DNA from: a virus | Virus record (IMG/VR): IMGVR_UViG_3300044972_000183 | Coordinates: 1-22,634 of that record | Strand: one strand, 5' to 3' | DNA: 22,634 nucleotides | Part shown: positions 3,811 through 22,634 of the stretch, piece after piece | Position numbering within the stretch: the stretch's first letter is position 1 | Layout: the number at the start of each line of letters is the position of its first letter | The notes under the pieces: generated by a model | What the model was told of the DNA's origin: nothing | Databases searched by the model: none | Seen by the model: the letters and a program-made list of their open reading frames with translations, nothing else | Translations under genes and position numbers: made by a program

Positions 3811-4952
3811 CAGAACACGCAAAGTTTGGCGCGTCGAATGCAAAGCGCCGCATGGGTTGCCCAGGTTCACTTAAAGCCGAGGCTCCGTTCCCTAATGAGA
3901 GTTCGCCATACGCTGAACTCGGTACGGCAGCGCACGAACTCGGTGAGTTCTGCTTAGTCAATGGACATGAAGATGCCTTCGCCTTCATTGGCCAAGAGCA
4001 TAACGGCCACAAGGTTGACGACAACATGGCCCGTGCGGTGCAGGTTTACATCGACTACATTCGAGATGTGGCCACATCGGAACCAAGCATCTGCCGCTAT
4101 GAGAAACGCTTTAGCCTAGACAAACTTGATCCACCCATGCCGATGTTCGGCACGGCTGACTGTATTATCTACGCCAAAGCAACCGGGACGCTTTACGTCA
4201 TCGACTATAAGCACGGCCAAGGCGTTGCGGTTGAAGTCACAGACAACGAGCAGCTTAAATACTATGCGCTTGGCGCTATCCTTGAGATAGGCGAGAAGGC
4301 TCCAGTCAATAAGGTTATCACGGTTGTTGTGCAGCCACGCGCCATGCACCACGATGGGCCGGTGCGTCAGTATAGCTACAGCCGTGACGAGATCATGGAC
4401 TTTGGAACCGAACTGATTGACGCAGCGCACGAAGCCATGAAGCCAGACGCAGCGCGCATATCTGGTAAGCACTGCACATTCTGTCTGGCAGCAGGAACTT
4501 GTTCGGCTCTGCGCAACAACGCCCTTGAGATCGCACAAGACGAGTTCGGCACAGTGCGAAACATCAATGACCTATCCCCTCAAGAGATAGCGGACTTCCT
4601 GCAAAGGGTTCCGCTGATTGAAGAATGGATCAAGTCTTTGCGCCGCCACGCCAATAACATACTTGACGCTGGCGCGGAACTTCCCGGCTACAAGCTGGTT
4701 GAGAAACGACCGACTCGCCGCTGGCGGGTTGAGGAAGAGTTTGTGGCTTGGGCCACAGAAGAAGGTCTCGATGACGACGACATCTACGAAAAGAAGTTGA
4801 AGTCGCCACCGCAGATCGAGCGCCTTGTGGGTAAGAAGAACTTGCCTGCCTCGCTCGTTATAGCTGTATCATCCGGCACATCTATGGTCGCTGATACAGA
4901 TAACCGTCCGGCTGTTGCCCTGTTGGCAGCAGACGAATTTACCGTTGAATAA
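3807..4952 (+). CDS. DUF2800-type PD-(D/E)XK nuclease with probable Fe-S cysteines
   Basis: A 381-residue protein that I assign to the DUF2800 family, related in plan to Cas4/RecB-type nucleases. Visible signatures are GTAAHELGEFC (39-49, the conserved His), FGTADC (Asp118), VIDYKHGQG (Asp133, Lys135) and QLKYYALG (149-156). Cys18 (GCPGSL) plus CTFC and Cys232 (223-232) give the one-plus-three cysteine layout of an iron-sulfur nuclease. The start at 3807 overlaps the polymerase stop (ATGA) with GAAAGAGG upstream; an in-frame upstream ATG at 3750 lies inside the polymerase gene and is unlikely. It is probably an exonuclease or end-processing enzyme in phage replication or recombination with its operon partners; substrate is not shown. 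Confidence 0.88.
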   Translation: MTEHAKFGASNAKRRMGCPGSLKAEAPFPNESSPYAELGTAAHELGEFCLVNGHEDAFAFIGQEHNGHKVDDNMARAVQVYIDYIRDVATSEPSICRYEKRFSLDKLDPPMPMFGTADCIIYAKATGTLYVIDYKHGQGVAVEVTDNEQLKYYALGAILEIGEKAPVNKVITVVVQPRAMHHDGPVRQYSYSRDEIMDFGTELIDAAHEAMKPDAARISGKHCTFCLAAGTCSALRNNALEIAQDEFGTVRNINDLSPQEIADFLQRVPLIEEWIKSLRRHANNILDAGAELPGYKLVEKRPTRRWRVEEEFVAWATEEGLDDDDIYEKKLKSPPQIERLVGKKNLPASLVIAVSSGTSMVADTDNRPAVALLAADEFTVE

Positions 4953-4962
4953 GGAAACACCG

Positions 4963-5523
4963 ATGTCAAAAGTTATTACACCTGAAGCAATCATCTCTTA
5001 TCCGCATGTGTTTGAACCACAGATTCCGCCGGGTGCAAGTGAGCCAGTCTATTCTTGCTGCCTTGTATTCCCTGACGGGACGGACATGTCCGAACTGAAA
5101 GCGGTTGCGGCGTCTGTTGCTAAGGAAAAGTGGGGAGACAAGACCAAATCGTTAATGGAAGGCGGCAAAATCCGTATGCCTTTCCGTAACGATGGCGAAG
5201 AGAAGGGCTACCCTGAAGGGTCGGTCTTCATGAACGTCAAATCTAAGCAAGCCCCCGGTGTGGTCAGCAAGTTTGCTGGCGAGAACGGCAAGCCTGCTCC
5301 GATCACTGACCCCAAGGAAATCTATCCGGGGGCCAAGGTCCGTGCCTCGCTGCGTGCGTATGCGTACAGCGTCAATGGCAACAATGGCGTTGCCTTCTCA
5401 CTGGGCAATCTTCAGAAGGTAGCCGACGGTCCCCGTATGGATGGCCGTCTGTCTGCTGCGGACGAGTTCACTGCGACGGAACGTCCGTCCGCAGACATCT
5501 CCGACCTTGACGATTTGCTCTAA
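4963..5523 (+). CDS. DUF2815-type single-stranded DNA-binding protein
   Basis: A 186-residue protein starting MSKVITPEAIISYPHVFEP, preceded by AAGGAAACACCG as ribosome binding site ten bases after the nuclease stop. The start YPHVFEPQIPPG, the PEGSVFMNVKSKQAPGV and the IYPGAKVRASLRAYAYS segments are typical of DUF2815, a family that pairs with family A polymerase and DUF2800 in many phages and is considered a T7 gp2.5-like OB-fold single-strand binder. The C-terminus is acidic and ends DISDLDDLL, as in single-strand binding proteins that recruit partners through an acidic tip. Last gene of the rightward operon, followed by the hairpin at 5537-5570. Binding activity is inferred from family. 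Confidence 0.88.
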   Translation: MSKVITPEAIISYPHVFEPQIPPGASEPVYSCCLVFPDGTDMSELKAVAASVAKEKWGDKTKSLMEGGKIRMPFRNDGEEKGYPEGSVFMNVKSKQAPGVVSKFAGENGKPAPITDPKEIYPGAKVRASLRAYAYSVNGNNGVAFSLGNLQKVADGPRMDGRLSAADEFTATERPSADISDLDDLL

Positions 5524-5536
5524 GTGAAGGGAAGGG

Positions 5537-5570
5537 AAGGGCCGAGGAGTTGGAAGTCACCTCGGCCCTT
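5537..5570. terminator. Strong hairpin between convergent operons, probable bidirectional terminator
   Basis: An 11-base perfect inverted repeat, AAGGGCCGAGG at 5537-5547 and its complement at 5560-5570, with a 12-base loop. It lies between the stop of the single-strand binding gene (5523) and the stop of the helicase gene (5572), exactly where rightward and leftward transcription meet. Neither side has a long T run (CTTAATCT on one side, CCCTTCCC on the other), so termination may be incomplete or rely on hairpin strength. Position and GC-rich stem make the terminator role likely. Confidence 0.8.
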
Positions 5571-5571
5571 C

Positions 5572-6855
5572 TTAATCTAAAGCCTCAGAAATCATCTGGG
5601 CTTTCTTGGCTAGGGTCTTAGCCACAATCTCATCGACAGAATTGACAAGGCCAAACGTCCGCACGATGACGGGCTTTGTCTGGCCGATACGGTGGCAACG
5701 CTTAGCCGCCTGCGCGTTCACCGCCGGAACCCAATCCATCTCCACAAACGCCACCTGATTTGCAGCCGTCAATGTAATGGCGGTGGAGCAGGCCGTGATC
5801 TGGCCGATGAAGACGCGCACCTTCGGGTCGGTCTGGAAGTTATCAATCGCCGCTTGACGGTCAGCGGAAGACATACCGCCTGCCACTACCACCGGATTGA
5901 AGTCTTTCAGTCTATCGTACAACGTCTGGATTGCGTCGGTGTGGTAGGCAAAGATTACGATTTTGTCGTAGGCATCATCAGCCAACTCGCCCGCTATCTG
6001 TGTGGCGATAGGCGCTGCCTTGGCCGCACCAGTTAAGCGACGTAGTGACGCGATGTGAGGGGCAATGCTTTCGATCTCGGTAGACAAGTCTTGATTTGTC
6101 AGCGAATGCGCGAGAATCATATCGACCGCTTCGGCTTGGCGTGGATCGTCGATGTGTTTGCGGTCGCTCCAATTAGCAATCTCAACAGGTACATCTTGCC
6201 ACCATATTGGAGGTAAATCTTTCAGCACGACCTCGCCCTTGCGGCGGAGCATGATTGCTTTTAGCACGGTCTTGAACTCATCCATGCGCTCGGCCTTGTT
6301 GCCAAGAATTTGCAAGCCGAACTGTCCGCTCCAAGTCTTGCAGAAGTAGGTCGTAAACTCGGTGAAGTTTAGTGGGTACTTCCAAATCGCTTTGAGATGC
6401 GTCCAGAAATCACTGACGTTGTTAGGAATGGGAGTACCACTAAGAAGCCAAACACGATCAGCGAAACGAATAAGACCATCGCCGCGACAGTACTGACCAT
6501 ATAGATACTTTGTGCGCTTAGCAGTACGGTTCTTGAGATAATGCGCTTCATCCAAGACAAGAACGTCTGGCTCAAACTTTGCGATTTCATTGCGAACCTC
6601 CTTCGATTGCGTAATCTTATCGTAGCTAAAGACTTTGACTTCGCGCTCGACCGTACCCCACTTGTCGAACTCACGACGCCAGTTAATCTTGGCGATGGCA
6701 GGACAAACGACAACGATCTTTGTTAAGCCGAGTGTATCACACGCTGCGATAACTTGAAGTGTTTTGCCAAGGCCCTGCTCATCCGCAAGGAATGCGGCGG
6801 GGTTCTTACAGAGAAAGTCTGCGCCGACCTTTTGGTAATCAAACAGATGATCCAT
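5572..6855 (-). CDS. SNF2-family DNA helicase/ATPase
   Basis: A 427-residue superfamily 2 ATPase. Visible motifs: DYQKVGADF at the start (Q-like region), Walker A DEQGLGKT (25-32), DEAH (102-105), motif III SGTP (139-142), and motif VI QAAKRCHRIGQ (382-392), the last being diagnostic of SNF2 proteins. It is short, as in phage helicases of this type, without extra domains. I chose ATG 6855, which gives the usual family N-terminus; an in-frame TTG at 6885 is less likely. The first 17 bases overlap the HNH gene. It is transcribed leftward at the end of the late run yet likely serves DNA replication or recombination with the polymerase operon. Confidence 0.92.
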   Translation of the reverse strand: MDHLFDYQKVGADFLCKNPAAFLADEQGLGKTLQVIAACDTLGLTKIVVVCPAIAKINWRREFDKWGTVEREVKVFSYDKITQSKEVRNEIAKFEPDVLVLDEAHYLKNRTAKRTKYLYGQYCRGDGLIRFADRVWLLSGTPIPNNVSDFWTHLKAIWKYPLNFTEFTTYFCKTWSGQFGLQILGNKAERMDEFKTVLKAIMLRRKGEVVLKDLPPIWWQDVPVEIANWSDRKHIDDPRQAEAVDMILAHSLTNQDLSTEIESIAPHIASLRRLTGAAKAAPIATQIAGELADDAYDKIVIFAYHTDAIQTLYDRLKDFNPVVVAGGMSSADRQAAIDNFQTDPKVRVFIGQITACSTAITLTAANQVAFVEMDWVPAVNAQAAKRCHRIGQTKPVIVRTFGLVNSVDEIVAKTLAKKAQMISEALD

Positions 6856-7420
6856 TGATTCGGTAGCTCCCCGTTTCCGTATCAAATTTTATGATATTAT
6901 GTTCTAATAAAAAAGGGACACAATCCATTAAAGAATTATGTGCGTCAGCATGTTCTTTTTTAGAACACACGAACAGGTTGCCCAAACGGTTGTCTGTATC
7001 TACGCAATTTATATGATGAACAACTTCTTCCGGAGTTAGAAACCGGCCAATGGCGCGCTCAACAACTAGGCGGTGTTGGTGAACGTATCCTTTTTTAGCG
7101 TATGGGTGGCCCGTGCATTTCTCTATAATGCTGCCTTTGTTAGTTCCTCTGCGTCTACGAACAGACCCGTCCGGTTTACTTACAATTGCCTTACGGCACT
7201 CCTCGGAACAAACCGCCGAGCCGTACCTTTTGTAGTTACTTAAGTGCGCCAAAACTACCGCGCCACAGACGCACTTAGTTTCTATGAAATATCTATTGGC
7301 CGATTTCCCTCGGTATAAATACGGCTTCCTAAATATGCCGTCGCCTTTTTCTATTAAGCCAGCATATTTATCGCTGTATCGTTCGTTTTCTTGGAGTTTC
7401 ACTCCGCGCTTTGTTGGCAT
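6839..7420 (-). CDS. HNH endonuclease with zinc-finger cysteines, probable homing-type intruder
   Basis: A 193-residue protein. Cys50, Cys52, Cys71 and Cys75 form a likely zinc-binding knuckle. The HNH core follows: HQHRLVVERAIGRFLTPEEV (114-133), then VVHHINCVDTDNRLGNLF (133-150) with His135/136 and Asn144/148, and KKEHADAH (154-161). The N-terminal part may bind DNA. The ATG at 7420 has GGGGA upstream. The gene overlaps the 3' end of the resolvase gene by 53 bases and the helicase start by 17 bases, and is visibly more AT-rich (about 45% G+C over 6901-7380 by hand count) than the helicase gene, consistent with a mobile free-standing homing endonuclease. A packaging-related HNH role is less likely because of its site. 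Confidence 0.87.
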   Translation of the reverse strand: MPTKRGVKLQENERYSDKYAGLIEKGDGIFRKPYLYRGKSANRYFIETKCVCGAVVLAHLSNYKRYGSAVCSEECRKAIVSKPDGSVRRRRGTNKGSIIEKCTGHPYAKKGYVHQHRLVVERAIGRFLTPEEVVHHINCVDTDNRLGNLFVCSKKEHADAHNSLMDCVPFLLEHNIIKFDTETGSYRINGSSV

Positions 7421-7895
7421 TTTCTAGTCCCCAAACAGCAAGCAACGCCGCATCGGCACGCCCGTCGTCCTTCTTTCTAGAAAACATAGTAGCGTGTTCT
7501 GGGAATAATTCAATAGCACGTTCTCTACTTGCGTCTTTTCCCTTAAATAGACGCATTGTTTTTGTCCAAGTCGCAGGGGGCACAAGCGTTACAGCCGCGC
7601 CCAAAGTGGCGAGGACACCTTCCAATACACCGCCTGCACGGCCAAACGCAAAAGAACTGGATACGCCCTGCCCGGGCATGGCCCATGTTTTCTCAACATA
7701 AGCCTGATCGTTTTCATGTATATGTGGGCGGAGGGCTTGGGCTAAAAGAGCAGGGTCTACTTGGTTAACCACCCGTGTCCCGCGCTTAACTTTTATAGTT
7801 GGCATATCTATAATCGTAAGCTGTCGGGTTTCGGTATCCAATATAACTATTGCTCCGAAGGCTCCAGGATCACATCCAACTATATTCATGGGCAT
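7368..7895 (-). CDS. RuvC-like Holliday junction resolvase
   Basis: A 175-residue RNase H-fold nuclease. VGCDPGAFGAIVIL (6-19, Asp9) is the RuvC-type first strand; YVEKTWAMPGQG (67-77, Glu68) and DDGRADAALLAVWG (143-156, Asp144/Asp148) supply the other acidic residues. It probably resolves branched DNA before packaging or during recombination. The start may be ATG 7895 or ATG 7889 (MNIVGCDPG); neither has a clear ribosome binding site. After the usual end near LLAVWGLEN the frame runs on for a short basic tail overlapping the HNH gene, which could be a by-product of HNH insertion. The family is recognised with good confidence; whether it acts on Holliday or other junctions is inferred. Confidence 0.87.
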   Translation of the reverse strand: MPMNIVGCDPGAFGAIVILDTETRQLTIIDMPTIKVKRGTRVVNQVDPALLAQALRPHIHENDQAYVEKTWAMPGQGVSSSFAFGRAGGVLEGVLATLGAAVTLVPPATWTKTMRLFKGKDASRERAIELFPEHATMFSRKKDDGRADAALLAVWGLENANKARSETPRKRTIQR

Positions 7896-8040: not shown

Positions 8041-8634
8041 CTAAATCCCGGAGAGAAGTCCGATTAACTGATCGCGCTTAGTCTTCTTAGCACCTCTGCC
8101 AAGAGATGCCATGATAGCCGAAAATTGTTCGGCGACATCTTCTGGCGATGCTTTAGGGGCTAGTGAAGCCGGAGCGGCAGCCATAGCGACTTTAGGCGTC
8201 GTCTCTTTCTTCGTAGACATAACCATCTCTGTATCCGGCTTCCCCATAAGGTCTTCCGCGCCAACGAGTTTTACGAATTTACGGACATAATTCTTCGTTT
8301 CGGCGAAGGGAGGTACGCCGCCGTACTTGCTGACGTTTCCGGGACCGGCGTTATACGCAGCCGCAGCAACCACAGGATCGCCAAACTTCTTCAGCATCTT
8401 TGCGTAGTATTTAACACCGCCTTCGATATTCTGATACGGATCGGATATATCAGCGACACCCATTTCTTTTGCGGTGCTGGGCATAAGTTGCATATGCCCT
8501 TGCGCCCCCGCTGAGGAAGAACGAACATTCTTACCGCTGGCGGTTTCATTTTGGTAGATAGCGCGAACATGCGAACGCGGAACGCCGTACTTGTCGGCCA
8601 TCTGATCTACATAACCTGTATAGTTTTTCGGCAT
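8041..8634 (-). CDS. Virion-type lytic transglycosylase (SLT domain)
   Basis: A 197-residue protein with a lysozyme-like SLT domain. Catalytic Glu30 lies in IYQNETASG, followed by SSAGAQGHMQLMPSTA (40-55) and AAAYNAGPGNVSKYGG (91-106), all classic transglycosylase motifs. A Ala/Pro/Lys-rich linker and a C-terminal helix follow. I chose ATG 8634 because GAGG precedes it and the domain begins directly after; an upstream in-frame start at 8703 lies inside the previous gene. No signal peptide is seen. Its location after the ejection-type genes rather than in the lysis cassette suggests a particle-borne enzyme that opens peptidoglycan during DNA entry, in line with many podoviruses. The placement argument is inference; the domain is secure. 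Confidence 0.92.
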   Translation of the reverse strand: MPKNYTGYVDQMADKYGVPRSHVRAIYQNETASGKNVRSSSAGAQGHMQLMPSTAKEMGVADISDPYQNIEGGVKYYAKMLKKFGDPVVAAAAYNAGPGNVSKYGGVPPFAETKNYVRKFVKLVGAEDLMGKPDTEMVMSTKKETTPKVAMAAAPASLAPKASPEDVAEQFSAIMASLGRGAKKTKRDQLIGLLSGI

Positions 8635-8641
8635 AAATACC

Positions 8642-10441
8642 TCAGATTCCCTTACCGAAAGATCGTTTTTCACCATAGACAGGCGCAAAGCCGCCCATCT
8701 CATCGGACTGTACGTCTATCAAGACCTGCCCCTTTGGCGCTAACTTACGAAATCTCTGAAGCATATCACTTGACGCCTCAACCGGAGGTTTAATTACAGG
8801 TTCTGTAGTAGCGGCTGCAGCAGTTGCCGGACTCAGACCAATCCGCGCCATATTAGCTAGTTGCTGCGCTGCGGGGCCAGCTTCACGGGTCATGACATAC
8901 TGCAAGCCCCGCCGTCCTTGCGGGCTATACAACGCGGCCAGTGTGGCCAATGTAGATACCGGCAATTCGTAAGGAACTGCGCCTTCTTGCTGCGCCAGAT
9001 ACGTCCCACCGGCCCCGGCCCCAATGAGGCCAAGTGCTTGCGCGGTAGCCGCACGAGTAAATGTGCCGCTTTCGGCGAGGCCCTTGGGCAACTCCATACC
9101 GGCACGGGCGAGGTCTTCGTAGAAGCCGCCTATCTTACCCCCGCTTAGGGACTTAACTGCGCGAGTAAGACTTGAAGGGCTAACAGTGTTTCCACTGTAC
9201 CCAACAGCCTTATCCAGAACTGTCTGAGCGTTCCACGCCTTATTAAGCCGAAGAAGTTCCTCTGCCTGAGCCGGATTTTGTTCGGCTAAAGTATCGAGCA
9301 TCCAACTACGAACCTGCGCCAAACCGGAACCGACACGACGCTCGAACCCGTCATCGGACTTCATAAAAGTACGAGCAGTATCTGAAAGGCCGCTTAATGA
9401 GTTTTGTAGATTACGGCCAGAGATACGGCCCATAGTATCGGATACGGCCTCTACATTCTGTGTTACCGTAGACAGGAAATCATCCAGCAAACCCTTACGG
9501 CTGGCTGGAAGGTTCAGACTGCTAAAGATATCAAGAGTTTGGTTCTGCCAGTTATCTGGCAGCGCCATATCTAGATTTGGCACAAGGTCGTTAAACTTAT
9601 TAGAAATACTTTTCTTTACCCAACTGACAGCCCTATCTCCCGATAAGTTGCTGGGAAGGTCTACATTAATGAAATCGGCAAGTTTAGTCACCGCCGCCTT
9701 TTCAAAATCCTCTGGAACCGTACCACGGGCTTGGCTAATAAGCGCGCCAAGACCGGGAATAGAAGTAAGGGCCGTCTCCGCCATATTTGCGGCTCGGCCA
9801 ATCGCAGTATCGGTAGCGCCGAGAATAGCACCCGGCGTAAGACGAACGCCGAGATCAGTAAGCGCACGGACACCTTCCGTTACCTTCGGGGCGATAGTGC
9901 TTCCAACAAAATCGCCAACACCCTTCCCGACAACCCCAAGGCCCGCGCCGGTAGCCGTTTCCCCCGCAAATTCGGTAGGCGTCTGTGCTTGCGAAAGAAG
10001 CGCGCTAGTCGCGCCACCCGTTACCGCAGACCCACCAAAAGTAGCGGGAGCCACAGAGCCACCTCCGGCTACGATAAAAGGAGCTACGCCAGCTACATTG
10101 CCGACAATTTGCGACACCTTGGCGGGGGACTGCGCACGCGAAATGTTCTGCTGAGCCAATATATCAGCCGCAGATTCAAATCCTAAGTTTTGAAAAAAAC
10201 GATTTCCTGAAGGAAACGCTTGTTCAAGCCGCATAGCCGCAGTATCCAACGGCTGACGAGCGCCAAGATAAAGTCCTTCGACAATATCAGCAACAGTACC
10301 CAAAGCACCGGGAGACGATGGCCGTTCCGCTACCGGCCTAGAACGAGCATACGACTTCATAGCCGCATCGATAACTTCTTGCGACGTTCCGTCTGGAAAC
10401 TCGTGGGCTACCCCATCTGCGGATACCGCCTTAATGGTCAT
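8642..10441 (-). CDS. Large internal virion / DNA ejection-type protein
   Basis: A 599-residue protein. The N-terminus (MTIKAVSADGVAHEFPDG, then SQEVIDAAMKSYAR) is a short domain common at the start of phage and GTA internal proteins. Residues from about 110 to 200 are Gly/Ala-rich (FIVAGGGSVAPATFGGSAVT, GAGLGVVGKGVGDFVG), consistent with membrane-active stretches; the middle is helical and the C-terminal part is again Ala-rich. The start overlaps the upstream stop (ATGA). It is followed directly by the transglycosylase, an arrangement seen for ejection proteins of podoviruses such as P22 gp20/gp16 or T7 gp15/gp16. I infer a role in forming the DNA conduit; there is no catalytic motif. Confidence 0.7.
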   Translation of the reverse strand: MTIKAVSADGVAHEFPDGTSQEVIDAAMKSYARSRPVAERPSSPGALGTVADIVEGLYLGARQPLDTAAMRLEQAFPSGNRFFQNLGFESAADILAQQNISRAQSPAKVSQIVGNVAGVAPFIVAGGGSVAPATFGGSAVTGGATSALLSQAQTPTEFAGETATGAGLGVVGKGVGDFVGSTIAPKVTEGVRALTDLGVRLTPGAILGATDTAIGRAANMAETALTSIPGLGALISQARGTVPEDFEKAAVTKLADFINVDLPSNLSGDRAVSWVKKSISNKFNDLVPNLDMALPDNWQNQTLDIFSSLNLPASRKGLLDDFLSTVTQNVEAVSDTMGRISGRNLQNSLSGLSDTARTFMKSDDGFERRVGSGLAQVRSWMLDTLAEQNPAQAEELLRLNKAWNAQTVLDKAVGYSGNTVSPSSLTRAVKSLSGGKIGGFYEDLARAGMELPKGLAESGTFTRAATAQALGLIGAGAGGTYLAQQEGAVPYELPVSTLATLAALYSPQGRRGLQYVMTREAGPAAQQLANMARIGLSPATAAAATTEPVIKPPVEASSDMLQRFRKLAPKGQVLIDVQSDEMGGFAPVYGEKRSFGKGI

Positions 10442-11761: not shown

Positions 11762-12613
11762 CTATGCCTTACCAAAAATACCAAGGGTTTTAAGACCCGC
11801 AAGCACACCTGCAATATCACCGGCGGTTCCGATGGCACCTTGCCCCGGCTGAGTTGTCGTTTGCGTGACTGGGGACGGAAGACCCTGCGAACCCATGAGC
11901 AACGTCTGAAGCTGCTGCTGCGGGAAGCCACGCTGTTCCAAGAAGTCCTTGTAGGCCAGATCAATGTTCTGCTGAGCCATGCCGCGTTGTGCTTGACCCG
12001 CGCCCTGAAGCATCGCCGCATAAGTCTGCTGATTGCCCAGCGCCTGTTGACCGTAGCCTGCAAGAGCCTGTGCACCCGCAAGCTGCTGACTCGGCAGACC
12101 CTGTGCAAACCCAGCGGCTTGCGTGTATCCACGATTATAGAGATCAGCCAGCGTCTGAGCCGTATTCAAATCTTCTTGACCTGCAAGCTGCGCTTCGTAG
12201 ACACCACGGCGTTCGTTACCAAATGCCTTGGCTGAAGCAAGCTGCGCCCGCGTTGATGCGTCACGTTCAGCGCGGTTCTGTGCCAAGCGGGCCATCGTGG
12301 CGTCGATGACGTTGGTCTGGAACGGCGACATGAAGCCGGAGACATCTTGCTGGAACTGTTGCGGCGTGTAGCCCGCTGCGCGTTGGGCAACCTGTGTAGC
12401 TTGGTTAAGCTGCGGCATACCAACTTGCTCGGTGGCTGCGCGGGTGGCGACACCGAACGCCTGCTCTTCAGCGGGTCGGAACTGCGCAATGCGCGGGCCA
12501 CCGTAGGCCTGATACGGAATGGACGCAACCTGCTGTGCGGCTCCATAGTTACGCGCCAGAATATCCTGAATGAAAGGATTGAGCGCCTGAGTTTGCGTAG
12601 TAGTTACCGCCAT
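11762..12613 (-). CDS. Gln/Ala-rich probable ejection protein, 283 residues
   Basis: A 283-residue protein starting MAVTTTQTQALNPFIQDIL. It is extremely rich in Ala, Gln and Gly, with a long helical centre (ARLAQNRAERDASTRAQL, GNERRGVYEAQLAGQ) and ends with a Gly-rich hydrophobic stretch (GTAGDIAGVLAGLKTLGIFG) that could be membrane-active. This composition is typical of phage internal core or ejection proteins. The start overlaps the stop of the 23-residue micro-gene in a TAATG junction. It lacks enzyme motifs. Assignment to the ejection apparatus is inference from composition and neighbours. Confidence 0.65.
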   Translation of the reverse strand: MAVTTTQTQALNPFIQDILARNYGAAQQVASIPYQAYGGPRIAQFRPAEEQAFGVATRAATEQVGMPQLNQATQVAQRAAGYTPQQFQQDVSGFMSPFQTNVIDATMARLAQNRAERDASTRAQLASAKAFGNERRGVYEAQLAGQEDLNTAQTLADLYNRGYTQAAGFAQGLPSQQLAGAQALAGYGQQALGNQQTYAAMLQGAGQAQRGMAQQNIDLAYKDFLEQRGFPQQQLQTLLMGSQGLPSPVTQTTTQPGQGAIGTAGDIAGVLAGLKTLGIFGKA

Positions 12614-12686: not shown

Positions 12687-13280
12687 CTACTGCACCTGCA
12701 TCACTGATAAAAGGCAAGATGGCCCAGATGGAGCAAATGCCGTTGCAGGAGAAGCATGAAGTTCAAGGTTGGTACTATCAGCAGCCCACATTAATTCAAT
12801 ATAATCGCCAGCAATTAAGGGAAAGAAGTGATCTATGCCCGACGCCGCATGACCGCCGTTGATGTTATCTGTTACCAAAATCGCACTTGCAGGTACATCG
12901 GTTCCATTTTTCCTGAACCAAAACCATGTAGTTTTTGCGCTACTATTGTTGGATAGAATTGTAAAATGACTTGAAAAATTATACACGCCGTCTTCCGCTA
13001 CGACAATCCGAGATGCAGGCGAACCGATTGAGACGCTCTTGCTATTCTCGGTTGTGTCAAAGGTAATGGCATACGCCGTATTTGCAGCGGCAGGAGACAC
13101 ACTAGTAGTTTTCTTAAACTGGCCGTAGAACCCTTCGTAGATCAGCTTGGCTGGTGAGTAAATCCCAACGTCCTGACCCTTCTCGTAAACATTATTCGAG
13201 AAAAGTTCTATAAGGCGGTTGCGTTGCGACTCATAATTCGGATCGTATGCGCCTGGGGGTGGTGGTAGCCTAACGCTCAT
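12687..13280 (-). CDS. Tail-associated protein with C1q/TNF-like jelly-roll domain
   Basis: A 197-residue protein. The first 50 residues (LPPPPGAYDPNYESQRNRL) look like an attachment segment. Residues about 60-197 fit a C1q/TNF-like beta jelly roll: RIVVAEDGVYNFSSHFTI (91-108), WFWFRKNGTDV (119-129), IAGDYIELMWAADST (156-170) and PSCLLSVMQV (187-196). Such domains usually form trimers and in phages are found in fibre tips and other receptor-contacting parts. It directly follows the nozzle gene (ATGA overlap). Assignment comes from motif pattern alone; a different beta-sandwich is possible. A role in host contact or fibre attachment is inference. Confidence 0.68.
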   Translation of the reverse strand: MSVRLPPPPGAYDPNYESQRNRLIELFSNNVYEKGQDVGIYSPAKLIYEGFYGQFKKTTSVSPAAANTAYAITFDTTENSKSVSIGSPASRIVVAEDGVYNFSSHFTILSNNSSAKTTWFWFRKNGTDVPASAILVTDNINGGHAASGIDHFFPLIAGDYIELMWAADSTNLELHASPATAFAPSGPSCLLSVMQVQ

Positions 13281-14758
13281 CTACGGCCACCCGGAATAGC
13301 ATTCAGTCGCTGCGTCCCTACACGCCAACTAGACGGCGTTGTAGTTGTCACGCGCATTTTAATCTGACGCCCGTTGAAACGAACAGATGTCGGCTGTGTC
13401 AAACTATACGGGCCGTAAGTTGTCTCCGCACTTGTCGGATAATAGCGCGTTGTAAACGTGGCGGAGACGCTGCCCAGATTGCGCTCGTCTGGGATTATCT
13501 CATTGATATATAAAACCTGATCGCCTTGGCCAATCTGAAACGGGCCAGTCTCCGCGTATGGTAGCGCCCCGCTGTAATTCAAACCAACTTCATGGTCGTA
13601 TATAAGCCCATCCGTTCCGATCATAATCGGGTTACGGAACACGCCGCGATCAGTACCAGCGGTTCTAGCAAGCGTCCCAATTGACCAATGGTTCTCTACA
13701 TAATCCCAAGAAACGTAGCTGTCGTTTTCGTTGGCTCCAGCCGATGGATAGAACCACCAGACTTCATTGTACTGGCTATTGTTAACGGCGTATACTTTGG
13801 AGATTTGGTCGGCGTTAATGTCATTAAAAACGTAATCATAAACTTCGCATGGTAATGGCTTCACATAGCCATCATAAACGTGGAAGCCCTTCTGCCCCAT
13901 CCAGACAGCCATGTTATCAAGAACGGCAACGCAGTTTGCGGACACAGCGCCACAGGCCCGACCGGCGATTTCAGCCTGGTACACAAACGGCTGGCCGACA
14001 TAGGTAAGCGTGTGCGCGTCGATGTCCGTCAGTATAAGGTTCTGGCCACGGACACGTTTGCCTGTGACAATCCGCCCAGCAGTTTGCAGTTTAATGCTAC
14101 CCGCAAGATTTGTGGAAGAAGCTGTCCAGATAGTGTTGTTTTCAAGGTCTGACCACGCGACCGTCCGCGCATCACCCGAAGCGCCAAGCGCGAACAGGGA
14201 GCGTTCGGCAGATACAAGAAGGCCAATGCAATTTGTTGGCGCGTTTGTAATGACAGCGGCTTTTGTTGGCGTTGTAAAATCAAGCTGCCACTCGTACAAC
14301 TTGCCGTCAGACGTAGAACATCCAACAAGATATTCACCCCAAGTGTCGAGGCTCCACGTTGTAGCAGGCGTTACAGAACCAGTGTCAGGACGAGGTGTGC
14401 CGTAAAAGCCACCACCATAAGTACCGATCCCATAGCCAGCGCCCGTAGAAGCATTGTCCGACCCCGCAGTAAAACTAACAGGGGTAATGTCTACCAGAAC
14501 ATTGGATTGGGTAACAGCATATAGTTTCGACGATGTTCCGGCTGCCATCAAGCGGATATTGCCGTTTGTTTTCCATGTGATAAGAGAACGAGCCTTGCCC
14601 GTTAAGGCAGAAATAGGGCGAACTTCCCAGCCCCCGACAGGCTCCATAGCTCCCTCTGTCCAGCGCACAAGATTAGTGTCATACCAACGTCCTGTTGACT
14701 GAAGTTCAGTTCCGCTGCGATATACGCCAGGTGGTATGGAAATAGGGATCAGTGTCAT
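13277..14758 (-). CDS. Tail nozzle / DNA stabilisation protein (P22 gp10-like)
   Basis: A 493-residue protein that closes the short tail below the adaptor in podoviruses. The N-terminus IPPGVYRSGTELQSTGRW followed by NLVRWTEG and VGGW is characteristic of the gp10-like stabilisation protein family. The rest is beta-rich with repeated WxxL/Y and aromatic turns (for example YNEVWWFYPS, YVSWDYVENHWSIG), consistent with a beta-propeller fold. Start ATG 14758 lies 34 bases after the Rz1 stop; the ribosome binding site is weak. The gene overlaps the next by ATGA. The family assignment is based on pattern recognition; the structural role follows from P22 and SU10-type particles. Confidence 0.8.
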   Translation of the reverse strand: MTLIPISIPPGVYRSGTELQSTGRWYDTNLVRWTEGAMEPVGGWEVRPISALTGKARSLITWKTNGNIRLMAAGTSSKLYAVTQSNVLVDITPVSFTAGSDNASTGAGYGIGTYGGGFYGTPRPDTGSVTPATTWSLDTWGEYLVGCSTSDGKLYEWQLDFTTPTKAAVITNAPTNCIGLLVSAERSLFALGASGDARTVAWSDLENNTIWTASSTNLAGSIKLQTAGRIVTGKRVRGQNLILTDIDAHTLTYVGQPFVYQAEIAGRACGAVSANCVAVLDNMAVWMGQKGFHVYDGYVKPLPCEVYDYVFNDINADQISKVYAVNNSQYNEVWWFYPSAGANENDSYVSWDYVENHWSIGTLARTAGTDRGVFRNPIMIGTDGLIYDHEVGLNYSGALPYAETGPFQIGQGDQVLYINEIIPDERNLGSVSATFTTRYYPTSAETTYGPYSLTQPTSVRFNGRQIKMRVTTTTPSSWRVGTQRLNAIPGGRR

Positions 14759-18426: not shown

Positions 18427-19389
18427 TTACGAGGTAGTCAAGTCAGCTACGATACCGTGAGCAGCTTGGGTGTTAACCTTCAGGCCATACTCAACGAGCA
18501 TCAAACGCTTCTCGGCATCGCCGGTCTTAGCAAGAAGGTCTTGCTGGATCGGACGAAGAACTGCCAACGAGGCGTAATCGGGATCGACGACGAACGCGTC
18601 ACGGTCACGCTGGAAGCGGTTAGGGACGATGTTGACCGTACCAAAGTCAGACACATACACGTCAGCAGCGCCGACGATCTGAGCCTGTTGACCAGCCGGA
18701 ACATCACGGAACCGAGTAGCAATACCCGAGAATGCCGAGGCAGCCGTCTTGTTGAACGGACCAACCATAAGCATCTTAGGCGTACCACCTGAAGTCCAGA
18801 CGCTCTGGATAACACTCTTCAGCAAGGTTTCCGTGAACGCACGCTGCGTACCATCGGTACGAGCAGCAGTTGGGGTTGAGCCAACAGTCGGGTTCGCACC
18901 GCCTGAACCGAACGAGGTGTTTGAAGTCAACCACGCAGGGAGACCAGCAGTACGACGGGCAACCGTGGTGCTACCAGCAGCGGATGCTTGGTTAGCAAGC
19001 AATGCGCTTTCCATGTCGCGCTTCAGTTCTGAACCCAGCTTAGCAAGCTGATAGGTCAGTTCCGAACGACGACCGGCTTTGTCAACAGCTTCGAGCGTAC
19101 CGGAGATGATAACATTCTTTGTGCTGATCTGCGTGTAGTTACCAACGCGAGCGGTTGGGACAACAGCAGTGAACGAGGAAACGTCATCACCTTCAAGCGC
19201 GGCGTTAGAGGCTGAGGCCGAAGCCAAGGCGTCTGTCTGCCACTCGAAGTAGGTGTTCTTAACGCTTTCGCGGCCGATGTTCGAGATGAACGGAGTTTCT
19301 TCTGGCGAGATGTTATAGATAACATTCGACAAATCTTCACGAATACCGATAGCAGAGTACCGGGTATAGGTATTACCAACAATAGCCAT
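18427..19389 (-). CDS. Major capsid protein (SU10 / DUF5309 type)
   Basis: A 320-residue HK97-fold coat protein. The N-terminus (YSAIGIREDLSNVIYNISPE followed by TPFISNIGR) and the TYFEWQTDALASAS segment are typical of DUF5309/SU10-like major capsid proteins, as are the AKLGSELKRDMESALLANQ helix (133-151) and the C-terminal AEKRLMLVEYGLKVNTQAAH stretch. AAGGA precedes the ATG by eight bases. It follows the scaffold gene and is followed by a strong hairpin. The family is recognised with confidence; there is no sign of a fused protease. Confidence 0.92.
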   Translation of the reverse strand: MAIVGNTYTRYSAIGIREDLSNVIYNISPEETPFISNIGRESVKNTYFEWQTDALASASASNAALEGDDVSSFTAVVPTARVGNYTQISTKNVIISGTLEAVDKAGRRSELTYQLAKLGSELKRDMESALLANQASAAGSTTVARRTAGLPAWLTSNTSFGSGGANPTVGSTPTAARTDGTQRAFTETLLKSVIQSVWTSGGTPKMLMVGPFNKTAASAFSGIATRFRDVPAGQQAQIVGAADVYVSDFGTVNIVPNRFQRDRDAFVVDPDYASLAVLRPIQQDLLAKTGDAEKRLMLVEYGLKVNTQAAHGIVADLTTS

Positions 19390-19404: not shown

Positions 19405-20412
19405 TTAAATGAGTTTATCCAAAAGAGCGGCTGCGTCAGAAACGCGGCCACTACGCACAAGGCGCTGGGAAGCTCTCTTTACATCGGTCGAACGTGTGTT
19501 GGTTTGAGTACCAGAAGAACCTGGGCGAACAATCCGCGCAACCCTTTTTGGCTGTGCTTTTGCTTTTTCCACTTTCTTTGAACCCTTATCAAACATCATC
19601 GCTTTGCGTAGGATTGAAACGTGAGTAGCCTGAACAAGTGCGCTTAGGTCGCGTTCGCTAAACCCATTAGTCAAAGCCCATTCACGAAGTTCCTTAGCTT
19701 CGCTCTGCATTGTGCCTTCGTCTTTCCATTCAGGAATTACGTCGGTGAGTTTGGCGCGCTCTGACTGTACAATGTCAGCCAATGCCCGCTGTTGCTCTTT
19801 GCTCATCTCTTCAGCAATCCGCTGCTGTTCAGTATTAATAGCCTGAAGTTTAGCGGCTCGCTCTTGACGAGATTTATTCCAATGCCGTTCTAACCGCGCC
19901 GCCTCAATGGGGTCTTCGTTATAAAGATTGTCCCAGTCAGGCTCAGCCTCGGACTGCACTTCGATCTGCGCTTTAAGCGTCGGGAGCAGTTCCGCGTATT
20001 GAGCGCGTTCCATACGGATCGCTTCGGCTTCGCTATGGAACGACTTGCGTTCTTCAGCTAATGCCTGAGTTTTCCGTGTGTAATCCGAATAACGAGAATA
20101 ACCTTTCCGAAGTTCGTCAAGGGTGACTTCCACTTCTTTGCCATCATCTTTTACCTTGATGACTAGATCGTCAGGAAGTTCCTGTTCGATAACCTCTTCG
20201 TTGTCGTCCTCTTCATACGGGTCAGACTCTTCGGTATCCTCTTCTTCCGAGTAATCCTCGGCCTCAGTTTCTTCCGGTTCGTCTTGAGCCTCTTCAGGCT
20301 CTTGCGCCTCGGCCTGATCTTGGTTGTCCTCATTCGGGCCAAGTAGTTGGTCGATGGCTAGTGTTGCTTCGTGGAGGCCGATCCCACCGGGGTTGCCGAC
20401 TTGTTCCGTCAT
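19405..20412 (-). CDS. Capsid scaffolding protein
   Basis: A 335-residue protein with an extremely acidic N-terminal region (residues about 25-80, mostly Glu/Asp), a small middle domain (VKDDGKEVEVTLDELRKGYS, then YSDYTRKTQALAEER) seen in many phage scaffold proteins, a long helical coiled-coil part (RQERAAKLQAINTEQQRIAE), and a basic C-terminus (KVEKAKAQPKRVARIVRP) suited to contact the capsid. It lies directly before the capsid gene, the usual place for a scaffold. AGAAGG precedes ATG. No protease motif is seen, so the scaffold is probably released rather than self-cleaved; this last point is inference. Confidence 0.85.
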   Translation of the reverse strand: MTEQVGNPGGIGLHEATLAIDQLLGPNEDNQDQAEAQEPEEAQDEPEETEAEDYSEEEDTEESDPYEEDDNEEVIEQELPDDLVIKVKDDGKEVEVTLDELRKGYSRYSDYTRKTQALAEERKSFHSEAEAIRMERAQYAELLPTLKAQIEVQSEAEPDWDNLYNEDPIEAARLERHWNKSRQERAAKLQAINTEQQRIAEEMSKEQQRALADIVQSERAKLTDVIPEWKDEGTMQSEAKELREWALTNGFSERDLSALVQATHVSILRKAMMFDKGSKKVEKAKAQPKRVARIVRPGSSGTQTNTRSTDVKRASQRLVRSGRVSDAAALLDKLI

Positions 20413-20434: not shown

Positions 20435-20665
20435 TTAACTCCTCGATTTGGCGACTAAGCCATCGTCAAGGATTGCCTGTAGGCGGGCTTTCAAACGCTC
20501 AAGTCCTTTGAGCGTGTGAAACATGTCAGAGCGGGCGTCGTTGTCGGCGTAGCCAGACATGCGCCACTCTTCAAAAATATCTCTCTCGACTTCAGCAAAC
20601 GCACCCTTGAGAATGTCATCATCAAGAAGTCGCTTTGCGTGGCCAGCTTTTGTTATAGGGTCCAT
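20435..20665 (-). CDS. Hypothetical 76-residue helical protein
   Basis: A 76-residue protein starting MDPITKAGHAKRLLDDDILK. It is almost wholly helical and charged, with ILKGAFAEVERDIFEEWRMS and MFHTLKGLERLKARLQAIL; small proteins of this kind often lie between portal and scaffold genes in podoviruses. The start overlaps the previous stop (TGATG). It may assist portal or terminase assembly, but there is no direct indication. No family name can be given. Confidence 0.68.
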   Translation of the reverse strand: MDPITKAGHAKRLLDDDILKGAFAEVERDIFEEWRMSGYADNDARSDMFHTLKGLERLKARLQAILDDGLVAKSRS

Positions 20666-22161
20666 CAGATTAACGGCATGTACGCAGGGTTGATGGTCAT
20701 TGCTGGCGGTGCTTGGGTAGGCGCAGTGCCTCCAGAAACAAGACCGCTATACTCTGGCCGGAAGAACATAGCTTCTGGGCCAAAACCATAACGCTCATAG
20801 TCTAGGATGTTTGGATTGGCGCGCATATCTTGGCCGCGGGCAAAACCTACGCCCGTGCCAAATGGCGAGACATACGGCACTCCTGTACCTGTACCACCGC
20901 TACCGGCGAGAAGGCTTTTTAGAAGATCGGCCCCGACACCACCAATGGACAGAAGTTCAGGTATGCTTAGGCCAGTGCCAAGAACGCCGTCCTTTGTAGA
21001 AGGCGGCGTTGTGGTTGAAAAAGTCGGTGGCAACGGATTAACCGTGCCCCCAAGCGTCCCACCAAGCACTTGACCAAGCACACCGCCGATGTTCGGTTCT
21101 TGCGGTCTTGTTCCCGTAACAACAATTTCATCGGGCATGGAAGGCTGTGGGTTGATAAGCGAAGCCACCGGTCCAAGCGTTTCGCCAAGGTTCGGCTCTA
21201 CCGGTCTCCTTCCCGAAACAACAATTTCATCTGGCGTGGTGGGCGACGTACCTACAAGCGAGGGGATTGAACCCAACGCGCTGCCTGCTGCGGAGCCGAC
21301 AAGGCTAGGCGCGGCTGCTCTCGCTGCGTTTACGAGGATGTCGCCCGCAGCACCACCGACGGCAGCAGGGATTGACGCGCTTGCAAGGCTACCAAAGTTA
21401 AGACCTTGAAGTGCATTCGGAATTAAGTCTGCGTTGATGCCGGTCATTGGGGCTGACGCTCCCGACCCAACTTGGCCAAACAGTTGACCGCCAAGAGCAG
21501 AACCACCAGCGGACAATCCGGCGCGGAGCAATGTGTTTTCTAAACTACGCCCTTGAGCAACGCTTGATGCCGCAGAACCCAAAGCCGCACCAAGAACGGG
21601 GCCAATGCCAGGGATAAAGCCTGCGGCAATTGGTAAGGCCACATCCGCAATCTGGCCGAGAACGCTCTTGTTAGCCTTCTCGTTGGCTACGGTTACATAT
21701 GCACCGGACGGGTCTGCGGTTTGAATGTCGTAATTCGCCTTGCGGCCTAGTGTGTCGGTTAGGTTCTGACCCAGTTCGGTTGCCTTGCGCGCTGCGTCAA
21801 CGCCTGCGCCCTCAAACACAACCTGATTGGTGCGGAGGTCAACGAGGCGTACCGGCTGATCTGGCGTTACTGCAAAAACATTGCCGCCCATTTTTCCTGT
21901 AGGGTTGCCTTTGTTGGATACTGGCGCGGTTATATACTCTATGTTTGGGTCTTGAATTACGCCACCCATCCGACCGCCGCCAAAGCCGCCTAGACCGCTT
22001 AGGTCCAAGCCAGCCAACATGCTTAGATAATCCGGAGTAACAGCCTGTTGCGTCATTGGCATAACTGCCGCCTGACGGGGCGCGTCCATGATAGGCCCCG
22101 CAGCAGCGGCTGCTAGAAGTCCCTGTAGTGCAGGATCATCATAGTAATAATCTTCAAACAT
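20665..22161 (-). CDS. Glycine-rich virion protein with duplicated TonB-box-like motif
   Basis: A 498-residue protein of unknown function between portal and scaffold. The N-terminus is Tyr/Asp-rich (MFEDYYYDDPALQG). Residues about 174-230 form Gly-zipper hydrophobic stretches (ALPIAAGFIPGIGPVLGAAL) suited to a membrane channel. Residues 311-324 (DEIVVSGRRPVEPN) and 344-357 (DEIVVTGTRPQEPN) are a direct repeat 33 residues apart that resembles the start of TonB-dependent receptors. The C-terminus is Gly/Pro/Ser-rich and ends with NILDYERYGFGPEAMFF. AGAAGG precedes the ATG. Composition suggests an ejection or tail-attached protein; no family is named. Confidence 0.65.
   Translation of the reverse strand: MFEDYYYDDPALQGLLAAAAAGPIMDAPRQAAVMPMTQQAVTPDYLSMLAGLDLSGLGGFGGGRMGGVIQDPNIEYITAPVSNKGNPTGKMGGNVFAVTPDQPVRLVDLRTNQVVFEGAGVDAARKATELGQNLTDTLGRKANYDIQTADPSGAYVTVANEKANKSVLGQIADVALPIAAGFIPGIGPVLGAALGSAASSVAQGRSLENTLLRAGLSAGGSALGGQLFGQVGSGASAPMTGINADLIPNALQGLNFGSLASASIPAAVGGAAGDILVNAARAAAPSLVGSAAGSALGSIPSLVGTSPTTPDEIVVSGRRPVEPNLGETLGPVASLINPQPSMPDEIVVTGTRPQEPNIGGVLGQVLGGTLGGTVNPLPPTFSTTTPPSTKDGVLGTGLSIPELLSIGGVGADLLKSLLAGSGGTGTGVPYVSPFGTGVGFARGQDMRANPNILDYERYGFGPEAMFFRPEYSGLVSGGTAPTQAPPAMTINPAYMPLI
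21092..21247 (-). repeat. Two-copy direct repeat coding DEIVV(S/T)G motif, 99 bases apart
   Basis: The DNA around 21092-21148 and 21191-21247 is similar, sharing for instance ACAACAATTTCATC in both copies, 99 bases (33 codons) apart and in frame. It encodes the two DEIVV(S/T)G(R/T)RP motifs of the glycine-rich virion protein. The copies differ at several positions, so the duplication is not very recent. Confidence 0.7.
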
Positions 22162-22634
22162 TACATCATACCTTCTGGGGGGAGTTCAGGTTGCATTGGC
22201 ATTTCAGGTTGCATCTGTGCTTGCTGAACAGCCTGCGCCATCTGCTGGGCTTGTGCCATCTGCGCCATCTGCGCATCCTGTTGGGCCTGCATAGCGGCGC
22301 GTTGCATTTCTTCCTGCTGACGCACCATCTCACGATCACGCTGGATCATGGCTTCGATGCTGGCCGTGTTAACCGGCGTGCCGTACTTAGCTTCAATCTC
22401 AGCGGCCTTAATCATAAGGTCGGCGTCAAGTTTGTCGCGCTCACGGTCATCCTTGCGCAGCATGTCTTCGCGTTGCAATTCAAGTTCTGCGGCCTTCTTC
22501 TGAATGTCCGCACGAATTGCTTCCATCTGAACCTGAGACAGCATCTCTTCCGGTGTTGGCTGCGGTGGTGCAGGCGGTGGTGGAGGCGGCATCGTGGCTG
22601 GGTCGTTGAAGAATACGGTCGGGTCTTTGTATCC
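22161..22634 (-). CDS. C-terminal part of the portal protein (5' end outside the window)
   Basis: The frame is open from the right window edge to the stop at 22161, giving 157 residues. It begins GYKDPTVFFNDPATMPPPPP; a motif of this kind (GYKDPxxFFxDP followed by a Pro stretch) is the usual end of P22-like portal proteins. The Pro stretch is followed by a long charged helix (MEAIRADIQKKAAELELQRE) and a Met/Gln/Ala-rich tail. An internal ATG at 22592 exists, but the open upstream frame makes a truncated portal more likely. Location ahead of scaffold and capsid fits. The portal ring feeds DNA into the head and holds the adaptor. Confidence 0.75.
   Translation of the reverse strand, partial: GYKDPTVFFNDPATMPPPPPPAPPQPTPEEMLSQVQMEAIRADIQKKAAELELQREDMLRKDDRERDKLDADLMIKAAEIEAKYGTPVNTASIEAMIQRDREMVRQQEEMQRAAMQAQQDAQMAQMAQAQQMAQAVQQAQMQPEMPMQPELPPEGMM

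Follow-up and report, generated by a model that had tools for sequence, protein, structure and literature searches.

TonB was discovered through phage T1, and the use of TonB energy by phages has stayed unclear. In T1 and phi80, the role of TonB is generally attributed to its action on the FhuA receptor, and to our knowledge no TonB box has been reported in the proteins of either phage. In the TonB-dependent receptors themselves (PF07715/PF00593; BtuB, FepA, and the receptors of Caulobacterales and Sphingomonadales), the box is a flexible stretch of nine residues in which an acidic residue and IxV are followed by [TS][GA]x[RK]. Group B colicins (M, B, and Ia, and also 5 and 10) are foreign proteins that bring a TonB box of their own for pulling. 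A colicin must itself contain a box in order to be taken up, and T1 adsorbs irreversibly only with TonB and energy (PMC11658791). The ejection proteins of podoviruses (T7, P22, and epsilon15) enter the periplasm (PMC8954989). The locus described here may bear on the way in which short-tailed phages bring these proteins and their DNA through the envelope. No earlier report of phage-encoded TonB boxes, including boxes in phage tail proteins, was found in the open-licence literature.

We analyzed a stretch of viral DNA of 22,634 nucleotides (IMG/VR record IMGVR_UViG_3300044972_000183, positions 1 to 22,634; hereafter the window), which is no part of any cellular genome and comes from a freshwater-type bacterial virus. 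All of its features given below with positions lie on the minus strand. One gene (20665..22161), an ORF with homologues in IMG/VR, codes for a 498-aa protein with an array of TonB-box-like motifs. The array resembles the boxes of receptors in sequence, but it belongs to a phage gene, is followed by neither a plug nor a barrel, and consists of several internal copies instead of a box at the mature N-terminus. Whereas group B colicins are free toxins, usually with one box, the array lies in a probable ejection protein in which no toxin domain was seen. In related phages the protein family occupies the same module as the podovirus ejection proteins (T7 gp14-16, P22 gp7/16/20; phrog_4287 as a neighbor), although by profile search its members are none of these.

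The array gene and its product

The array gene and the gene upstream of it overlap at the start codon of the one and the stop codon of the other (TAATG; ATGATGTAATG). The upstream gene, of which the C-terminal part is present (22161..22634), probably encodes the portal, as indicated by synteny with phiM5, Venkman, and others; its own family match was weak. On the other side lie the genes for a 76-aa protein (20435..20665; phrog_8161), a head scaffolding protein (19405..20412; phrog_3927), and a SU10-type major capsid protein (18427..19389; PF17236). Toward the other end of the window there is a podovirus-style module composed of an adaptor, a virion structural protein of the packaged-DNA-stabilization type (13277..14758; phrog_3287), a DNA ejection protein (11762..12613; phrog_4287), and, closing the ejection module, an SLT transglycosylase (8041..8703; PF01464). 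The array gene thus sits between the probable portal gene and the genes for the 76-aa and scaffolding proteins, outside the ejection module. In the capsid relatives compared (Sinorhizobium phage phiM5, Methylophilales phage Venkman, Pelagibacter phage HTVC106P, and Manatee Spring phage ctyzp037), the gene was absent between portal and scaffold; because these nearest relatives are without it at that place, phages with that capsid type can dispense with it. A comparison of DNA polymerases for predicting the host of the window phage was uninformative.

In PHROG and Pfam profile searches the 498-aa protein matched no known family, a full-length viral search returned only phage homologues of unknown function, and neither a whole-protein tblastn search in INPHARED nor a 56-aa motif query gave matches. 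The Pfam scan revealed no Plug and no barrel domain, and with neither a Plug domain nor a 22-strand barrel the protein was ruled out as a TonB-dependent receptor. Identity as a tape measure, the annotation in GB2A and DSL-LC04, was also rejected, since PHROG tape-measure matches were confined to the C-terminal LSDGEYVI stretch of the long homologues; there was no such match in the window protein, which ends in TINPAYMPLI and is without that domain.

The AlphaFold2 model contained a folded alpha/beta domain common to the family (aa 71-165; 21667..21951), with a pLDDT of about 90 in the full-length model and a mean of 88 when the domain was modelled alone; comparison of this domain with the PDB gave no significant or informative fold match. 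A Gly/Ala-rich hydrophobic segment (aa 167-226; 21484..21663) was predicted, at low confidence, to form helices. The region holding the motifs (aa 311-357) was predicted to be disordered, with pLDDT values of 31-37 around it, which is as expected of a TonB box, and a folded domain containing the motif was thereby ruled out. The domain of colicin M that contains its essential TonB box is likewise unstructured (PMC11658791).

TonB-box-like copies in the window

When 152 six-frame ORFs of at least 60 aa were scanned with a matrix derived from receptor TonB boxes, the three best sites in the window were all in the 498-aa protein. Copy 1, DEIVVSGRRPVEPN (aa 311-324; 21190..21231), scored approximately 14.3-14.5 bits, and copy 2, DEIVVTGTRPQEPN (aa 344-357; 21091..21132), scored 19.7-21.2 bits and was the best site across all six frames. 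A diverged third copy, GDILVNAARAA (aa 273-283; 21313..21345; 11.3 bits), has counterparts such as GDIIVNAAR in homologues. The next site, at 10.6 bits, was in a spurious-looking ORF. A 260-aa DNA-binding-type protein (989-1771) carried LTEIVVSSSGRK, at 9.8 bits, probably a chance match. In 100 dinucleotide-shuffled windows, DEIVVTG was never encoded.

The sequence-only reading had described a duplicated motif. Copies 1 and 2 are indeed 33 residues (99 nt) apart. The third copy was not mentioned in that reading, and the motifs form an evolving array and not just two boxes. At the DNA level, both lie inside one 79-nt direct repeat with a spacing of 99 nt, of which copy A (21067..21145) holds motif copy 2 and copy B (21166..21244), 76% identical to copy A, holds motif copy 1; the two motifs are therefore paralogous copies of one duplicated unit. 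A duplication as simple as this would be in keeping with a neutral expansion of repeats in a disordered tail that evolves fast, in which the likeness to TonB boxes would be a convergence, or the trace of a receptor N-terminus captured long ago, with no present function. The comparison with homologues bears on this explanation and is given below.

Similarity to receptor TonB boxes

Plug-selected receptors of five alphaproteobacterial genomes carried VDEIVVTGTR, LDEVIVTGSRI, VDDIVVTGTRV, LDKVTVTATRSE, and the like, and the receptor matrix was composed of 27 TonB boxes chosen by eye from 30 Plug-selected receptors. Applied to 293 phage ORFs, it placed 23 proteins of the family among the top 27 (family versus other phage ORFs, p=2e-21). 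The family (24,300 aa) had 42 sites of at least 10 bits where shuffles had 0.55, and the other phage ORFs (95,695 aa) had 4. All four of these non-family sites were in a protein of approximately 1000 aa, unrelated to the family and encoded in L270, L303, L323, and L328 by the large ORF that closes the ejection module, with a single site in a linker near the C-terminus (PSEEIVVTATEGY, AEEQITVTGTRNP). From these matches, the protein appears to be a second, unrelated entry protein with a box, present in four relatives. The resemblance to TonB boxes extends far beyond one protein: it is seen throughout the family and also in this other ejection-module protein. In the reverse direction, a matrix of 76 phage sites was applied to the 1217 ORFs in 1.6 Mb of Brevundimonas alba DNA, where the nine receptors ranked 1, 2, 5, 8, 15, 34, 48, 297, and 354 (one-sided p=4e-6).

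A scan of 84,980 bacterial and archaeal genomes for DEIVVTGxR gave at least 105 sites. Among the matches listed, 92 of 105 lay directly before a Plug domain, and several of the remaining ones were in exported-type proteins, so distributed that DEIVVTGxR in cells reads as a receptor signature. The bacterial proteins other than receptors included SIMPL, VIT, and small proteins with signal-peptide-like starts (L220, L268, L178, L211, L174, and L156), and may be unrecognized TonB clients.

The full 9-mer was found in 27 stretches of IMG/VR, 15 of them in the protein class of the family, some of these 15 being duplicate contigs of one phage. The other viral carriers included the N-terminus of a hub resembling Mu gpP, a tape-measure-like protein, one true receptor, and two tail-tube proteins, which had the peptide in an extension at the N- or C-terminus. 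The loci of the hub, tail-tube, and tape-measure-like proteins, in unrelated phages, were L073:8433-9674, L105:2513-3454, L076:2181-2897, and L103:6841-10557. Some viral DEIVVTG matches were set aside, namely those in AGDEIVVTGVDxTFNGT contexts, those in very short ORFs, and the true receptor in a viral contig. A small phage protein (L082:3037-3468 and L113:4670-5083) had MARKKVKRYAAGDEIVVTGQRK, a Gly-rich middle, and the C-terminus SSASKRADGCATKGKTRG.

The resemblance to TonB boxes proposed from the letters of the window thus came through every sequence test that was run, with the receptor matrix and the phage matrix alike; as a likeness between sequences it is solid and not due to chance.

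Recurrence of the box among homologues

Homologues were gathered with a motif-free stretch of the protein as the query, which gave 37 non-redundant proteins. The sequence-only reading had made its case depend on conservation of the DEIVV core and had called for a count of copies. At least one copy was kept in 36 of the 37, the exception (L012) being a 251-aa fragment that ends before the motif region, and box number varied up to about six, with position and flanks differing as well. With regular expressions composed after the sequences had been inspected, for which reason the receptor-matrix test is the stronger one, 84 TonB-box sites were matched in the 37 homologues, whereas residue shuffles gave 2.9 and the neighboring ORFs, over 87,882 aa, gave 17; a stricter expression matched 35 sites in the homologues versus 0.06 in shuffles, and 1 in the neighboring ORFs. 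A chance origin of the motif was ruled out by these shuffles and neighboring ORFs. The pattern of the array, [DE]-x-I-x-V-[TSN]-[GA]-x-[RK], is of the receptor type.

An internal-repeat search that made no use of the motif found lineage-specific modules, many of them built around the same core (DLIKVTGSRVVPG, EEILVEARKPLAP, PNEIVVDATKAVV, DEIVVTGQRPGAV). This core peptide was written in many synonymous codon sets, for example 9 encodings in 10 copies of EIVVTG. The pN/pS ratio, with synonymous sites near saturation, was 0.39 for the motifs, 0.51 for the linker, and 0.14 for the folded domain; the motifs being only slightly below the linker, the constraint on them is real but modest. The fast evolution of the linker and the lineage specificity of the modules agree with the neutral expansion mentioned above. 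However, different lineages have amplified different flanking modules while keeping the same core, one peptide is encoded in many synonymous ways, and the unrelated protein of the ejection module has the box too, and we consider neutral expansion improbable.

The family, its gene order, and possible docking inside the virion

Relatives of the 498-aa protein were numerous in IMG/VR. They have in common an alpha/beta domain of about 95 aa and a hydrophobic part rich in Gly and Ala, after which comes a proline-rich region that is disordered, and the longer types end in an IPAxLSDGEYVI domain. Among cultured phages, the homologue is gp066c of Caulobacter phages RW, RLK, KcrB, and GB2A, which is like the window protein in having the box and which is syntenic with the ejection module. 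In RW it is preceded by the stabilization protein and a 78-aa ORF on one side and flanked on the other by the DNA ejection protein; a transglycosylase protein is encoded two genes further. The relative L295 has the RW gene order by profile (stabilization protein, family protein, DNA ejection protein), and L288 has the ORF layout of RW and a similar ejection-protein sequence. Unlike the window protein, gp066c of RW has the LSDGEYVI C-terminal domain and a proline in place of the usual glycine after the box: its single strong copy (16 bits) reads VDEIVVTPSQP, and its other repeats are weaker but box-like. From gene position and homologues, the 498-aa protein is probably present in the virion, and its family is proposed to consist of podovirus DNA-ejection-module proteins.

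The same gene order is relevant to another explanation, in which the array is a docking peptide inside the virion: a short linear motif of the beta-strand type, by which the disordered tail would bind the portal, an ejection protein, or the core, its likeness to TonB boxes reflecting the same beta-addition chemistry. The array adjoins the portal and scaffold genes in the window, its gene beginning where the probable portal gene stops, and adjoins ejection proteins in relatives; disordered peptides in multiple copies would also suit assembly. Docking leaves unexplained, however, the match with the whole receptor signature, including the [ST]Gx[RK] after the box, the reciprocal matrix matches, and the occurrence of the same peptide in unrelated hub, tail-tube, and tape-measure-like proteins. 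We regard it as rather unlikely.

A possible role in TonB-dependent entry

The reading that we favor is that the array engages TonB, the virion protein displaying boxes for TonB and ExbBD to pull, in the manner of group B colicins, a proposal that in our judgment could equally well prove right or wrong. The protein would leave the particle early in infection and reach the periplasm, where its disordered boxes would pair with the C-terminal domain of TonB by beta-strand addition; TonB-ExbB-ExbD, driven by the proton-motive force, would then pull the protein and the attached ejection complex inward, and several boxes would offer several chances of capture. The sequences themselves show the array, its match with receptor boxes, its recurrence, its predicted disorder, and the synteny of relatives with the ejection module; that the protein is part of the virion, gets to the periplasm, binds TonB, and is pulled are all steps that we infer. 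With T1 and phi80 the proposal shares TonB dependence, as known for the irreversible adsorption of T1 (PMC11658791). Against it stand the position of the window gene outside the ejection module, the missing LSDGEYVI domain of the window protein, the lack of the gene at that place in the nearest capsid relatives, the single strong copy in RW with its proline for glycine, and a constraint on the motif that is little above that on the linker. TonB boxes are, moreover, short and loosely defined, and this too counts against the TonB reading.

The same boxes could instead serve as a decoy that sequesters or jams TonB after entry, blocking receptor uptake or superinfection. The many boxes per molecule would lend avidity to such a decoy, and a precedent is the phage-encoded superinfection exclusion of T5 at a TonB-dependent receptor (PMC9586334). 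However, the window protein showed no signal peptide, without which molecules synthesized in the cell would fail to get to the periplasm, and a virion probably injects too few copies to titrate TonB. A decoy thus seems to us very unlikely.

Returning to engagement of TonB for entry, the box copies carried by this family suggest that these phages borrow the Ton motor of the host to get into the cell. The extension of this reading to a widespread group of short-tailed phages of receptor-rich bacteria, which would drive the entry of ejection proteins and genome with the host TonB-ExbB-ExbD through a periplasmic tail bearing the box array, is offered tentatively. If true, TonB-driven phage entry would be encoded by the phage itself. 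A phage-encoded box array would offer a concrete entry mechanism that can be tested genetically, and, since cultured Caulobacter phage RW and its relatives carry a homologue, without new isolation. The array also provides a signature by which such phages could be recognized from sequence, and it may help to predict host dependence. As a minor observation, the Manatee Spring phage ctpbd312 (L147) had, at 4402-7563, unusually cysteine-rich virion-module proteins, in which runs like CCSCCCSCCC occur, along with one EVEITGQR site.
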